DNA from: Bdellovibrio sp.
Lineage (GTDB): Bacteria > Bdellovibrionota > Bdellovibrionia > Bdellovibrionales > Bdellovibrionaceae
Reading direction: 5' to 3'
Assembly (NCBI GenBank): GCA_020720425.1
Contig: DYOP01000004.1
Location: forward strand, 27,960-60,779
DNA length: 32,820 bases
A program made the translations under genes and the position numbers. Within the stretch, counting starts at the first letter, position 1. Every line of letters begins with the position of its first letter. Shown here one piece after another: positions 7,060 through 22,817 of this stretch. The notes under the pieces are model-generated. The model was not told the DNA's origin, made no database searches, and saw only the letters and a list, made by a program, of their open reading frames with translations.

Positions 7060-8586
7060 GTGAAAAAAACATTATTTGAAGAATTAAAAAAAGATCTAAG
7101 CCTAAGGCAGCTTTCGTTTAAGCAAGTCGCAGCTTTTATTATACTAGTCATGATTGTTATGGTTTTTGTATTTTTTGGGTATTCCTCAAAAAACAGTATA
7201 GGTATGGGTTCTGCGGCTGAAGTTAATGGAGTTATTTTGTCTCAGGCTGATTACCAAAGAGAGTACGCTCGCTTAGAGCAAATGTATTCGTCTGTTTTTA
7301 AATCGCTCGGCAACTCGATGGGCCAACAGGGATTTTTAAAATCTCAGGCTATGGAGAGTTTAATCAGCCAAGAACTTAATTTTCAGGCCTCGGTAGATTT
7401 AGGGGTCAGAGTCAGTGATGCCGAGATTTTAGAATCAATCACGCAAGAAGTGGATGCATTTAAAGACGCAGGGCGCTTTCAAAGAGAGCGTTATGAAGCT
7501 GTTTTAAAAGCCAATCATTGGAGTCCTGCGGAGTTTGAAAAGCAAGTCAGAAAAGAAAAATCAGTTCAGCATATGCGAAGACTGTTTGAGTACGGCATGG
7601 GCCCAAGTCAACTGCAGCTAGCTCAAGAGCAGTTGATGGCTTCGGTTCAAAAAAATATTGGTTACCTAAGCTGGAATACAGATGAGTATGCTCAAATGCG
7701 AAATTTGGCTGATTCGGTTGTAAATGCAGAACTACAAAAACCCGAATTTAAGACCCGCGTTGAGGCCGAATTTGATGCTCGAAAAGCAAGCTTAATGCAG
7801 CCAGAAAAAGTAAAAGCCCGTCATATTTTAATTAAAATTAACCCCGAAGACCCAGGCTCAGAAAAAAATGCTAAAATAAAGATCGAGGATGTAAAAAAGC
7901 AACTGGGTGAAAAGCAAGATTTTGTAAAACTAGCAAAAAAATACTCCGAAGATATGGGGACTAAAGATAAAGGCGGGGATTTAGGTTATTTTTCTAAAGG
8001 GCAAATGGTACCTGAGTTTGAAAAATCAGCATTTGAACTTAATAAAGGTGAGATGAGTGAAATTATTAAAACTCAGTATGGCTACCATATTCTTCAGGTA
8101 ACCGATAAGCAGGGGGCCATTAGCCCTAACTTTTCGGAATGGGAAAAGAAAATTGCCAAAGATCTCGTGGTTAAAGACGAATACGAAAAAAACATTAAAG
8201 AACTCGAAGATCTGCTCGTTGCCAAACAGGGCGATCAGGCCGAGGCTCTTTTATCAAAATGGGGCTTTAACAAATGGACAGAGACAGGTTTGTTTTCTCT
8301 AGCTGACAAACAGGCGGGCCAAATTAAAAGTGAGTATATAAAACAAGCGGCCTGGGGACTGACGGTTAATCAAAAATGGCCTCAAAAACTATATCGCGAA
8401 GAAAACCGAATTTATGTTTTAAAATTCTTAGAAGAAAAACAAATAACCCCTGCCGTTACTCAGTCAGAACTCAAAGCTCAATTGACCCAAACTCAAGCGG
8501 GGGCTGTGAGTTCGGTTTTTGTTAAAGAGCTTCAAAACGATTCGGAGATTCAAAAAAATAGCGCTTTATTGGGAAGCCCACTTTAA
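7060..8586 (+). CDS. Membrane-anchored periplasmic peptidyl-prolyl isomerase (PpiD/SurA-like)
   Basis: 508-residue chaperone/isomerase. The GTG start at 7060 has AAAAGGGG upstream. One N-terminal membrane helix (about residues 23-41) anchors it in the inner membrane, giving PpiD topology rather than the soluble SurA form. A SurA-N-like helical chaperone region follows (about 55-235). A parvulin domain lies at about 248-350 (KARHILIKI, SEDMGTKDKGGDLGYFSKGQ, MVPEF, GYHILQV), then a C-terminal helical part. Proteins of this type help outer-membrane and secreted proteins fold as they leave the Sec translocon. It begins a probable operon, 14 bases before the next gene, and is divergent from mreC. 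Confidence 0.88.
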   Translation: MKKTLFEELKKDLSLRQLSFKQVAAFIILVMIVMVFVFFGYSSKNSIGMGSAAEVNGVILSQADYQREYARLEQMYSSVFKSLGNSMGQQGFLKSQAMESLISQELNFQASVDLGVRVSDAEILESITQEVDAFKDAGRFQRERYEAVLKANHWSPAEFEKQVRKEKSVQHMRRLFEYGMGPSQLQLAQEQLMASVQKNIGYLSWNTDEYAQMRNLADSVVNAELQKPEFKTRVEAEFDARKASLMQPEKVKARHILIKINPEDPGSEKNAKIKIEDVKKQLGEKQDFVKLAKKYSEDMGTKDKGGDLGYFSKGQMVPEFEKSAFELNKGEMSEIIKTQYGYHILQVTDKQGAISPNFSEWEKKIAKDLVVKDEYEKNIKELEDLLVAKQGDQAEALLSKWGFNKWTETGLFSLADKQAGQIKSEYIKQAAWGLTVNQKWPQKLYREENRIYVLKFLEEKQITPAVTQSELKAQLTQTQAGAVSSVFVKELQNDSEIQKNSALLGSPL

Positions 8587-8600
8587 AAAGGTATTTAGTC

Positions 8601-9161
8601 TTGGATAATAATGAGGTTACCATTTCATCGCAAACAGTGGCTGTTTTTTGTATTAGCGAGCAGCATGATCTTTATTCTTTGAGTTTGTCTTTTCGCGGGG
8701 TGCCTGACCAAGCAACGGGTATGGTTATTAACTTATCCGTGGTTGAGTATTGGTTAAAGCAAATAAAAATTTTAACTGAGAGTCGGGGATTTGATACTCT
8801 TAAAAAACTATTTGAAACTATACAAGATTATTTGATAGGCCAAGCCAAAGGCTACTCCTGCCAAATTGAAAGTATCGAAATTGGTCAGCCCTTTACGCAG
8901 GTGTACTTTAAATACAAGCAAGATAAGATATTCGTAACCTTAGTTAAAAACATGAGATATCAAAATCAATTTGGCCTTGCTAAGGTTGGGTTTGACTACG
9001 AATCGTATAATAAAATTCCTGACCGAGAGCGCAGGCAAGATGTTTGGATGCTATCTATGGCTGAGAATGCCGCCCTTGCTCTTAAAGGCAGGTTTCCGCT
9101 TGCTCTTTTTTGTGAATTCAAGGACCTTGTCACGGGTCAACTGATTCGATTTGAAAGGTAA
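8601..9161 (+). CDS. PTPS/QueD-like protein, apparently lacking the full zinc-His site
   Basis: 186-residue protein, start TTG 8601 with AAAAAGG upstream. It is not a standard enzyme, but two segments line up in order with the 6-pyruvoyl-tetrahydropterin synthase/QueD fold: HDLYSLSLSFRGVPDQ followed by ATGMVINLSVVEYWLKQI (family pattern HGHNY...TGMVxDF.DLK), and SMAENAALALKGRF (family pattern PTAENxAxxI). Known members bind zinc through three His residues; here only the His of QHDLY is obvious. The resemblance is therefore to fold, and catalysis is doubtful. It sits between ppiD and the S1 protein, 14 and 4 bases from its neighbours, and is likely co-transcribed. The ORF is well supported; the family assignment is my pattern match and was not checked by profile search. 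Confidence 0.7.
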   Translation: MDNNEVTISSQTVAVFCISEQHDLYSLSLSFRGVPDQATGMVINLSVVEYWLKQIKILTESRGFDTLKKLFETIQDYLIGQAKGYSCQIESIEIGQPFTQVYFKYKQDKIFVTLVKNMRYQNQFGLAKVGFDYESYNKIPDRERRQDVWMLSMAENAALALKGRFPLALFCEFKDLVTGQLIRFER

Positions 9162-9165
9162 CCAC

Positions 9166-10368
9166 ATGAGTAAAAAAGATATTTTTGGCGATGAAATTGT
9201 AGAAAATAATAAAACAACTTTTGAAGAGTTTTTACAGAAATCATCTGATTTAAAAAGTCATAAAATGGGCCAAAGGGTAAATGGAAAAATTTTATCAATT
9301 TCAAAAGACACGGTGCTGGTTGATATCGGCTCACATGTTGATGGTGTGATGTCAAAATTAGAAATTATAAAAGACACGGGAGAATTGCTATTTGAGGTGG
9401 GTCAGAGCATTGATTGTGTTATAAAAAAAATTTCTCCCGATTCAATTTTACTCAGGTATGAGGGGAGTAAAATTGGTTTTTCAGAAGATGCCGATTTAGA
9501 AGATGCCTTTGATTACGAAACTCCTATTGAGGGTAAAGTTTTAGAAGAGGTCAAAGGAGGCTTTCGAGTTATGTTACCCGGAAGTGTTAAAGCGTTTTGC
9601 CCTGTCAGTCAGATAGATTTTCGGGTCACTGAGCCCAAAGATTACATTGGGCAAAAATTTGAGTTTATTATTATCCAGTACGCCCAAGGGGGGCGCAATG
9701 TGGTTGTCAGTCGCCGCAGAGCTTTGGACGCTCAAAAAGTTCAAATTGAATCTGAATTTTTAAAACAAACTAAGCCAGAGCAGTTACTTGGCGCTGAAGT
9801 GATAAGGCTTGAAAAATTTGGCGCCTTTGTAAAGCTTGAAGATTGGGGCCTCGAGGGCCTTATTCCTTTATCAGAACTTGCATGGAATCGGATCCGTCAC
9901 CCTGATGAAGTGGTGCAAATCGGAGCTAAAATTCAGGTGATGTTTTTAGGCTCTCAAGAAGATGACAGCGGGCGCTTAAAATTAAGTTTTTCTCTTAAAA
10001 AAGCGGGTGCTGATGGAGACCCCTGGGCTATGGCCTCTCTTAAGTTTGCGGTAGGCACGGTTATTTTAGGAACAGTAGAAAAAAAAGAAGCCTTTGGTTT
10101 ATTTGTTTCCCTTCAGCCCCAAGGGGGGGTAACCGGGTTACTTCCCAAATCAATGTGGAAAGATAGCCTCGAATTCAAAGATTTTGAAAATAAAAAACGA
10201 GGCGATCCACTCACAGTTGTTATTAAAGAAATCAATTACGAAGCCAAAAAAATTCTTTTAGGTATTCCTGGCGATCAAGATGAGCCTGTTTACCAAGAAG
10301 GACTAAAGTCTAAAAGCCTGGGCACTTTTGCAGATTTATTTAATAAAAATAATTCTAAAAAAAAGTAA
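9166..10368 (+). CDS. S1-domain RNA-binding protein with four S1 repeats
   Basis: 400-residue protein made almost entirely of S1 (OB-fold) repeats: about residues 34-95 (GQRVNGKILSISKDTVLVDI), 115-180 (ETPIEGKVLEEVKGGFRVML), 200-275 (GAEVIRLEKFGAFVKLEDWG onward) and 290-370 (GTVILGTVEKKEAFGLFVSL). It resembles ribosomal protein S1 but is shorter than the usual six-repeat form, so it may be a paralogue acting in translation or RNA turnover. The chosen ATG 9166 has AAAGG at 9154-9158; the in-frame TTG at 9151 overlaps the upstream gene. The short Lys-rich tail (NKNNSKKK) may add RNA contacts. It is the last gene of the three-gene plus-strand unit. Confidence 0.88.
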   Translation: MSKKDIFGDEIVENNKTTFEEFLQKSSDLKSHKMGQRVNGKILSISKDTVLVDIGSHVDGVMSKLEIIKDTGELLFEVGQSIDCVIKKISPDSILLRYEGSKIGFSEDADLEDAFDYETPIEGKVLEEVKGGFRVMLPGSVKAFCPVSQIDFRVTEPKDYIGQKFEFIIIQYAQGGRNVVVSRRRALDAQKVQIESEFLKQTKPEQLLGAEVIRLEKFGAFVKLEDWGLEGLIPLSELAWNRIRHPDEVVQIGAKIQVMFLGSQEDDSGRLKLSFSLKKAGADGDPWAMASLKFAVGTVILGTVEKKEAFGLFVSLQPQGGVTGLLPKSMWKDSLEFKDFENKKRGDPLTVVIKEINYEAKKILLGIPGDQDEPVYQEGLKSKSLGTFADLFNKNNSKKK

Positions 10369-21060: not shown

Positions 21061-22817
21061 CTAGTTGCTGCAATTAGCAACATTCACCTTAATAGCCTTT
21101 GTAAGTTTTTTTGTAAGGCCTGAGCTTATTCTGGCTTGGTAGACACCCTTATCACTAAGTCCGATATTTTTAATGGTTAAGATGGATTGATTTTGATCAG
21201 AAATAACTTTGCCATCTTTAAGCCATTCATAATTCACTAACTCGGAAGATGAAGATGTTTTTCCAACTTTTAGTTGCAGATCGCTGCCCGTAGCCAGTCC
21301 TAAGCTTTCGGAGTGGCTCGCGATTTCAATCAGTCCCGCCGCCTGAGATCTGTCTAAATTAGAAGTTAAGGGTAACCCTGTGTCATCAGCAACCGAGTCC
21401 ATCAGTTTTTTTAAATCTAAAAGTTTTCCACCTATTGCAAAATTTGAAAAACTACTATCAACCTGTGAACCCCTAATAAAAAACTTTTTAACTTGTTCGG
21501 GGGTTATTGAAAACCCCCTTGATTCGGCAAGCCCAATGATCATAGCTGCGGCCCCTGCTACGACGGGTGAGGCCATAGAGGTTCCTTCCAAGCTACCATA
21601 TCCATTCGGAATTGTAGAATAAATTTTACCATAAGTGCTATCAGATCCTGGTGCCATTATATCGACATAGGTAGAAGAGTAATTTGAAAAGCTGCTCTTT
21701 TTTTTAGTTGAAGCATCAAACGAGCCCACACTTAACATGCCTGAAACATTAACTGTATAGGCTGCTGGATAAAATAAAAACGAAGAGTTAAGTTGCTTGC
21801 CATCATTGCCCGCGGCGGCAATGACAAAAACACCTTTTGAATTGGCATATTTAATCGCTTCTAAAAATGAAGAAGTTGTTTGGCCCCTCCCAGACTCATA
21901 TTGAAAACTTTGGCCCCATTATCAGCCGCCCAGTATATACCGTTAGTAACAGTAGACGTGTTTACACTTTGTCCATCGTTAGATACCTTGACGGGCATGA
22001 TTTTAATATAAGCCCCGGCTGTTCCGCTTATGCCCTGATTGTTGTTAGCTTGAGCGGCGATGATACCAGAGACATGGGTGCCATGAATTCCCGAATCCAA
22101 ATAGTTATCACTTGGAGCAACAACTTTTCCATTTTCCATAAGAATCATATTTGATAAATCGGGATGAGTAGTTTGAACGCCCGTATCAATAACGGCGACT
22201 CGTACTTCTTTGTTAATTCCGTTATTTGAGTTGTAGGCTTGGGCAAAAGCTTCGGGATGATGAATTGAGTTTAAATAATTTTGTTTAGAGTAAGAGGGAT
22301 CATTCGGGGCAGAGCTGACTATTTTAATTTGATAATCTCGGTCAATTTCAACAAGACATGAGTCTTTAAGCATTTCTTGGTAAACCTCAAGGCCCGAAAT
22401 TTTTTTGGAAACTTTATAACTAAACGTGGTGAATTTTGCATTGTGGGATAAAAGTTTTAGATTTTCAGTCAGGTCACTTTGGTGACCAAATTGAGTAAAA
22501 CATTCATTGTTTATTGTTACCAAAAGATCATCATCAGGATAAAAAGTTTCGTTTTTTAATTCTTCAGGAAATCGTTGTTTGGGTTCAGTCATTTCAATAG
22601 CAGCAATTTTATTAAACGATTTTGGTTCTGAGCAATTAACTTCGGGTCAGGGAGTCGTATCAATTTCAGGAGAAGGATTGTTTGGATCAATAATAGATGA
22701 GGCAGATAATTGCCCATCTTGATCTACTAAAAAACCTTGGCTGCAATTATTAAATAAAAATAAAAAGGGAACAATAAAGGCCAAATAAAATAATTTATAA
22801 TTTGACTTAATATTCAC
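21061..22817 (-). pseudogene. Broken subtilisin-like (S8) serine protease lipoprotein gene
   Basis: The intact gene would start at GTG 22817 behind GGGGGGAG and encode a lipoprotein signal (FLFLFNNC) followed by an S8 protease with the catalytic Asp (AVIDTGVQTTHPDL), His (GTHVSGIIAA), oxyanion Asn (IAAAGNDG) and Ser (GTSMASP), then a C-terminal Ig-like domain (YEWLKDGKVI, DKGVYQARI). Two lesions break it. An in-frame TGA at 22649-22647 follows DTTP, and coding resumes in the same frame with PEVNCSEPK. A one-base loss in the short T run at plus 21879-21881 shifts the frame after NMSLGGAK, so the His-containing part ends at 21861 and the Ser-containing part continues in another frame. Otherwise the sequence looks well preserved, suggesting recent decay or sequence errors. 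Read-through or recoding cannot be excluded. Confidence 0.85.

Follow-up and report, generated by a model that had tools for sequence, protein, structure and literature searches.

What is encoded by the short gene that lies between ppiD and an S1-domain gene in Bdellovibrio, and can its product act alone? The window (i.e. the whole 32,820-nucleotide stretch of Bdellovibrio sp. DNA that was analysed) contains at 8601..9161 (+) an ORF of 186 amino acids with a TTG start. The original prediction had described the product as a PTPS/QueD-like protein with a degraded zinc site. The placement of the gene was confirmed: upstream, at 7060..8586 (+), lies the gene of a PpiD-type membrane chaperone/PPIase with SurA_N and rotamase domains, and downstream, at 9166..10368 (+), that of an S1-domain RNA-binding protein with four S1 stretches. 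For the latter an in-frame ATG at 9166 is a likelier start than the listed one (frame 9151-10368). An mreC-mreD-pbp2-rodA cluster, in which mreD was named from its position only, lies opposite. Elsewhere in the window, at 21061-22592 (-), a subtilase-type gene is present as two ORFs carrying the first and last parts of a Peptidase_S8 domain, the second also with Ig-like domains, suggesting either that the gene is broken or that the assembly is in error.

No Pfam or NCBIfam family matched the window protein at E 1, a PDB sequence search with this protein returned only three meaningless matches (E 1.5-1.8), and a scan of the genome contigs with the single window sequence confirmed no relative. 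A search of 59 relatives revealed one clear homologue (G015, 36% identity), likewise between ppiD and an S1 gene, together with three weak matches, of which two were directly behind ppiD and one was a genuine PTPS. Inspection of the frames immediately following ppiD at 30 loci produced 20 related ORFs (one of them short) with the common pattern FxR...[VI]DxxSGMxxNLxxxD, no related ORF being recognised in the other ten. The finding of related ORFs downstream of ppiD led to an orphan-gene reading being dropped. When 140 genomes from the order were scanned with a profile of 19 of these ORFs (A2), hits were obtained in 46 of the 66 genomes belonging to the window's family (f1). There were also hits in 31 genomes from other families, and many of these lay in genuine PTPS genes. 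A second profile (A3), searched in 368 genomes of the phylum, gave long matches in f1 and partial ones elsewhere, the sole long match outside f1 being to a frame with nine stops (G361); A3 missed G027, which was found by A2. Ten named records with homologues belong to Bdellovibrio, Bdellovibrionaceae or Bdellovibrionales (one being B. bacteriovorus kdesi), and chain lengths in the protein family range from 108 to 239 amino acids. Orthologues in Bdellovibrio exhibited dN/dS values of ~0.09 to 0.16 (three pairs with dS < ~1.1) and are under purifying selection. Given the low dN/dS and the recurrence of related ORFs at this location in different genera, the ORF at 8601-9161 is a real gene, beyond chance.

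The gene for PpiD is directly upstream in 46 of 46 genomes having a homologue (i.e. 45 genes, in 46 rows with one gene present twice and ppiD judged by profile, plus G014). In 25 of the 46 rows (45 genes) the ppiD frame overlaps the next one; in eleven of these 25 the overlap is of 61-67 nt and arises only from taking the longest frame. In the genus Bdellovibrio the adjacent PpiD homologues are mostly of 343-386 amino acids, with one open frame of 751, and the PpiD scanned in G036 (3,782,950 bases; L108:4646-5746) has SurA_N domains only, unlike that of the window. The original prediction had drawn a possible function from this protein-folding/RNA-binding neighbourhood, which was not borne out: within the flanks searched an S1 gene adjoins only 7 of 76 loci, in three genomes (the window's own, G015 and G018), leading to its rejection as a pointer to function, and presence of the ppiD-linked gene follows a distant, motif-complementary PTPS (see below). 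A repurposed scaffold, also suggested from the operon, would now take the form of a cytosolic adaptor on the cytoplasmic tail of PpiD, near the mre/rod wall genes. The invariable position behind ppiD and the frame overlap are consistent with this role. A ppiD match was, however, obtained in 57 of 59 relatives (36 of 36 from the same family), yet 20 of 66 family genomes lack the gene, whose presence tracks a PTPS encoded far away; it is also retained in G036, beside a chaperone showing no PPIase domain. We regard the adaptor as improbable, and the ppiD linkage may perhaps be mere inherited position.

Kinship with PTPS was assessed by profile-profile comparison. Alignment of 46 family members with five long-loop PTPS by hhalign gave a probability of 97.5% (E 5e-12) as compared to 57.5% with 24 QueD-like PTPS, and the window protein and its nearest relative alone reached 94.1% against the long-loop PTPS. 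Column-shuffled controls (100 each) gave ≤2.2% and ≤1.6% with long-loop and QueD-like PTPS, respectively, reversed controls 0.1% and 0.0%, and the cdd, maf and ppiD families, as unrelated comparisons, 0.1-0.2%. A profile (A4) built from eleven relatives and not including the window protein was compared with PDB sequences and ranked rat, human and worm PTPS (E 0.0015, 0.009 and 0.28) as the first three of four matches at E ≤10. Pfam PTPS (PF01242) itself matched one of 28 family members scanned (E 0.0057), the other 27, like the window protein, having no match at E 0.01.

AlphaFold2, run without templates, predicted two consecutive T-fold units for the window protein when supplied with ten relatives (pLDDT 71.8, pTM 0.60) and two full units for the B. 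bacteriovorus kdesi homologue (pLDDT 85.8, pTM 0.78), with a beta-beta-alpha-alpha-beta-beta topology occurring twice per chain and reduced helices in the second unit of the window protein. Whole-chain VIA-align comparisons with two-unit T-fold enzymes gave Z scores of 9.7-11.9 for the window protein (at the best Z, rmsd 3.4 over 166 of 186 residues) and 11.9-14.4 for the Bdellovibrio homologue (at the best Z, rmsd 3.8 over 202 of 207). The N-terminal halves aligned with PTPS, at Z 8.7 and rmsd 2.3 over 98 residues for the window protein (2dj6/2dtt) and at Z 10.2 and rmsd 1.6 for the homologue. With Foldseek neither model had a match at E ≤0.001, so that the structural case consists of the VIA-align results and the kind of matches obtained. 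The first unit (residues 13-106; 8637..8918, +), with strands and helices in the order strand-strand-helix-helix-strand-strand, is related to PTPS by AlphaFold2, VIA-align and hhalign. The second, degenerate unit (residues 109-185; 8925..9155, +) is a T-fold by fold similarity only: the C-terminal halves of 22 Bdellovibrio members gave 0.2 and 0.9% against the two PTPS alignments, and a sequence comparison of the two units found no tie (0.5%). The predicted T-fold and the profile-profile result both agree with the original prediction, neither a different fold nor an unrelated family having emerged.

The order HDLYSLSLSF ... ATGMVINLSVVEYWL, on which that prediction was based, is present and corresponds to strand 2 of PTPS and the beginning of helix 1. 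AENAALAL (residues 154-161) had been misassigned to the PTPS PTAEN helix, as it sits in the second T-fold unit. Degradation of the zinc site was upheld by the proposed alignment of metal and substrate positions: across 46 members the three zinc His columns contain His in 1, 0 and 0 cases, and the window protein has Ile, a gap and a gap. The place of the long zinc-binding loop of PTPS is taken by a turn, SEQH (residues 19-22; 8655..8666, +), and His22 lies within this turn, which is four residues long and joins strands 1 and 2. The catalytic Cys column has Cys in none of the 46 members (a gap in 44), and the catalytic Asp-His columns (LDH) have Glu-Ser in the window protein and most commonly Glu (24) and Lys, Ala or Gln (7 each) in the family. 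The earlier view that the protein is non-catalytic on its own is probably right. There is good support for the fold, the PTPS kinship and the loss of zinc. The motif T39-G-M-V-I-N-L45 (8715..8735, +), matching TGMxx[ND][LF], is retained; within this segment Met is present in 46 of 46 members, Gly in 45, Asn in 39 and the final Asp in 43 (replaced by Glu in the window protein). The substrate-binding Glu was less clear: the pterin-anchor position has Glu in 31 of 46 members, Asp in 4 and Gln in 3, with Gln in the window protein, where the strand register is uncertain. Glu is found in 23 of 23 members from the genus Bdellovibrio, and the nearest relative of the window protein has His. Single-unit zinc-less T-fold proteins of another family are encoded at L151:2472-2852 and L152:2521-2856, adjoining genes named by eye as ribonucleotide reductase-like and with no ppiD within the fetched flanks.

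The genome of the window has three PF01242 genes elsewhere than at 8601-9161. Two are divergent (G000:C133:5386-6233), an arrangement that recurs in many relatives. The third, at G000:C155:12189-12566, encodes a long-loop PTPS and follows the gene of a short-chain reductase. In a subset of f1, three PF01242 genes were present in 24 of 26 genomes with the ppiD-linked gene and none to two in 11 genomes without it. Across all 66 f1 genomes, 44 have both the ppiD-linked gene and the long-loop PTPS (hereafter the partner), two have the former only, none the latter only and 20 neither (Fisher p 5.7e-15, with relatedness ignored). The two exceptions, G025 (54% complete) and G072 (550 contigs), likewise show no match to the reductase that adjoins the partner. 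In an RpoB phylogeny covering 54 of the 66 genomes (support ≥0.9 at 24 of 48 internal nodes), the ppiD-linked gene is missing from eight clades, all of which also lack the partner; the partner is missing from nine in total, with G025 and G072 as the additional cases. Twelve genomes without an RpoB match were left out of the tree, eight of which have neither gene. The two genes are not adjacent. A reductase gene is just upstream of the partner in 28 of 30 loci by motif, with a 4-nt overlap in most, its identity being Pfam-confirmed in the window's genome only. As a control, reductase and partner were discordant in 15 of 66 genomes (11 with reductase alone, 4 with partner alone; E 1e-38), a count into which paralogues of this large gene family may enter. 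With discordance in 2 as against 15 of 66 genomes, co-occurrence with the partner is tighter for the ppiD-linked gene than for the partner's own neighbour.

Reading of all 44 partner chains showed zinc His at the three columns in 44, 44 and 44, Cys in 44, Asp in 43, His in 44 and the anchor Glu in 44. The TGMxxNL motif, kept by the ppiD-linked family, was found in none. Co-inheritance could indicate a shared pathway instead of a complex, with the ppiD-linked protein performing a separate step on a pterin; as this protein keeps none of the zinc ligands, Cys and Asp-His of PTPS, and complementarity with the partner would then be coincidence, a separate step appears very unlikely. GFRP controls GTP cyclohydrolase I, and a regulatory pseudoenzyme might similarly bind a pterin or purine in its retained half-pocket and control the zinc-type PTPS without completing the active site. 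Co-inheritance with the partner and the frequency of the anchor Glu, above all its constancy in the genus Bdellovibrio, would fit such control; loss by the partner of the very segment that the ppiD-linked family keeps would be left unexplained. The differing anchors of the window protein and its nearest relative also count against control by ligand binding, so that the ligand sensor of the original prediction is kept merely as a rival and the regulatory reading is rather doubtful.

PTPS chains outside f1 were also compared. The first 14 motif-bearing chains included ten picked by a motif-dominated profile and one by the window protein, and because of this bias the check was redone with the motif-lacking profile of the partner. 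A total of 51 chains was read, comprising 43 matched by this profile at E 1e-10 and eight more. Three zinc His were present in 26 of the 43, and 19 of these 26 (including all 16 from f4 and f6) also carry the motif, scored as G, M or L, N and D. The seven three-His chains without the motif are all from f10 (G046, G051, G055, G093, G095, G096 and G097), the motif being only partly changed in G096 and G097. A second chain, which carries the motif (Asn or Asp at the Asn position) but not the full set of zinc ligands, is present in six of these seven genomes; no motif partner was found for the zinc chain of G093. In G046, G051 and G055 (genera g30/g37) a zinc chain of 246-265 amino acids without the motif is accompanied by a zinc-less chain of 111-126 amino acids with it, the Asp-His pair being absent from both chains in G055. 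A further three f10 genomes (G058, G090 and G094) have one complete chain and, in addition, a copy that has lost one zinc His. The pattern outside f1 is not clean, as G093 and G055 depart from it and no three-His chain was seen among the chains read from nine genomes (G045, G089, G091, G103, G107, G112, G121, G136 and G270). A different division of the active site was observed in G050 (L145/L238) and G123 (L229/L240), where the main PTPS chain has lost Asp-His wholly or in part, the pair being kept by a second chain of 204-215 amino acids with incomplete zinc ligands. Chains of 243-313 amino acids at L223, L232, L233, L236 and L237 (f4, f6 and f10) resemble, by eye, two fused PTPS units with unequal decay.

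PTPS is a homo-oligomer. We propose, with a probability of roughly 60% and from comparison of sequences and predicted folds, that the gene at 8601..9161 encodes the zinc-less, TGM-bearing subunit of a heteromeric (i.e. split) PTPS-type enzyme. In Bdellovibrio-type predatory bacteria the ppiD-linked protein would probably work only together with a second protein. An ancestral long-loop PTPS may have held the zinc His, the catalytic Cys, Asp-His and GxxDPxTGMxxNLxxxD in one chain; one copy, the partner, would have kept the zinc and catalytic residues and lost the TGMxxNL segment, and the ppiD-linked copy, which has a second T-fold unit, would have kept this segment and lost the zinc. Active sites of PTPS are formed between adjacent monomers (PMC7546909), which is why assembly of both chains into a mixed T-fold ring is envisaged. 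The zinc subunit would perform the chemistry in a shared active site, to which the ppiD-linked subunit would add the missing barrel walls as well as the TGM segment. The reductase adjoining the partner suggests that the product would be a tetrahydropterin. A variant, T67M, is listed among those of PTPS-deficient patients (PMC9792861), and by our numbering human T67 would be the Thr of the TGM segment. The split enzyme is favoured by this variant together with PTPS kinship, predicted fold, co-inheritance, complementarity of the two chains and the motif/zinc pairs of f10. Against it, the partner has its own anchor Glu and may bind substrate unaided. The mixed pattern outside f1, the self-sufficient copies in G058, G090 and G094, the separate locations of the two genes and a possible link through a shared pathway also count against it.

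In other members of the order zinc ligands or Asp-His are divided between two chains, which suggests that a homo-oligomeric PTPS may have split into complementary subunits more than once. Tentatively, the common plan could be three T-fold units per ring, f1 combining one zinc unit with a two-unit chain and g30/g37 having the mirror arrangement, in which the second unit of the zinc chains is taken from their length only. Titles and abstract openings among the literature matches listed mention no split or pseudoenzyme PTPS, which is weak evidence of absence. If the split enzyme is real, this lineage has divided a shared PTPS site between two diverged chains and its relatives retain apparent intermediates, making visible a route from a homomeric enzyme to an obligate heteromer. 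An unannotated gene of predatory Bdellovibrio would also be explained and a tetrahydropterin route indicated in these bacteria.

Comparison with known systems places the ppiD-linked family nearest to the long-loop subtype of PTPS/QueD (PF01242), with which it shares the N-terminal T-fold unit, the GxxDPx[TS]GMxxNLxxxD segment and an Arg before strand 1 (44 of 46 members; Ser in the window protein). It differs from this subtype in its second T-fold unit and in not keeping zinc His, Cys and Asp-His. Urate oxidase and GTP cyclohydrolase IB also have two T-fold units in one chain and align structurally over the whole chain, but with 4-13% identity and lengths of 232-322 as compared to 108-239 amino acids; neither appeared in the PDB profile search, where PTPS was listed instead. 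A final likeness is to the GFRP-regulated GTP cyclohydrolase I, likewise a T-fold enzyme with a partner protein (for the association itself, see PMC7546909), the difference being that here the partner protein would itself be a T-fold derived from the enzyme family that it serves.
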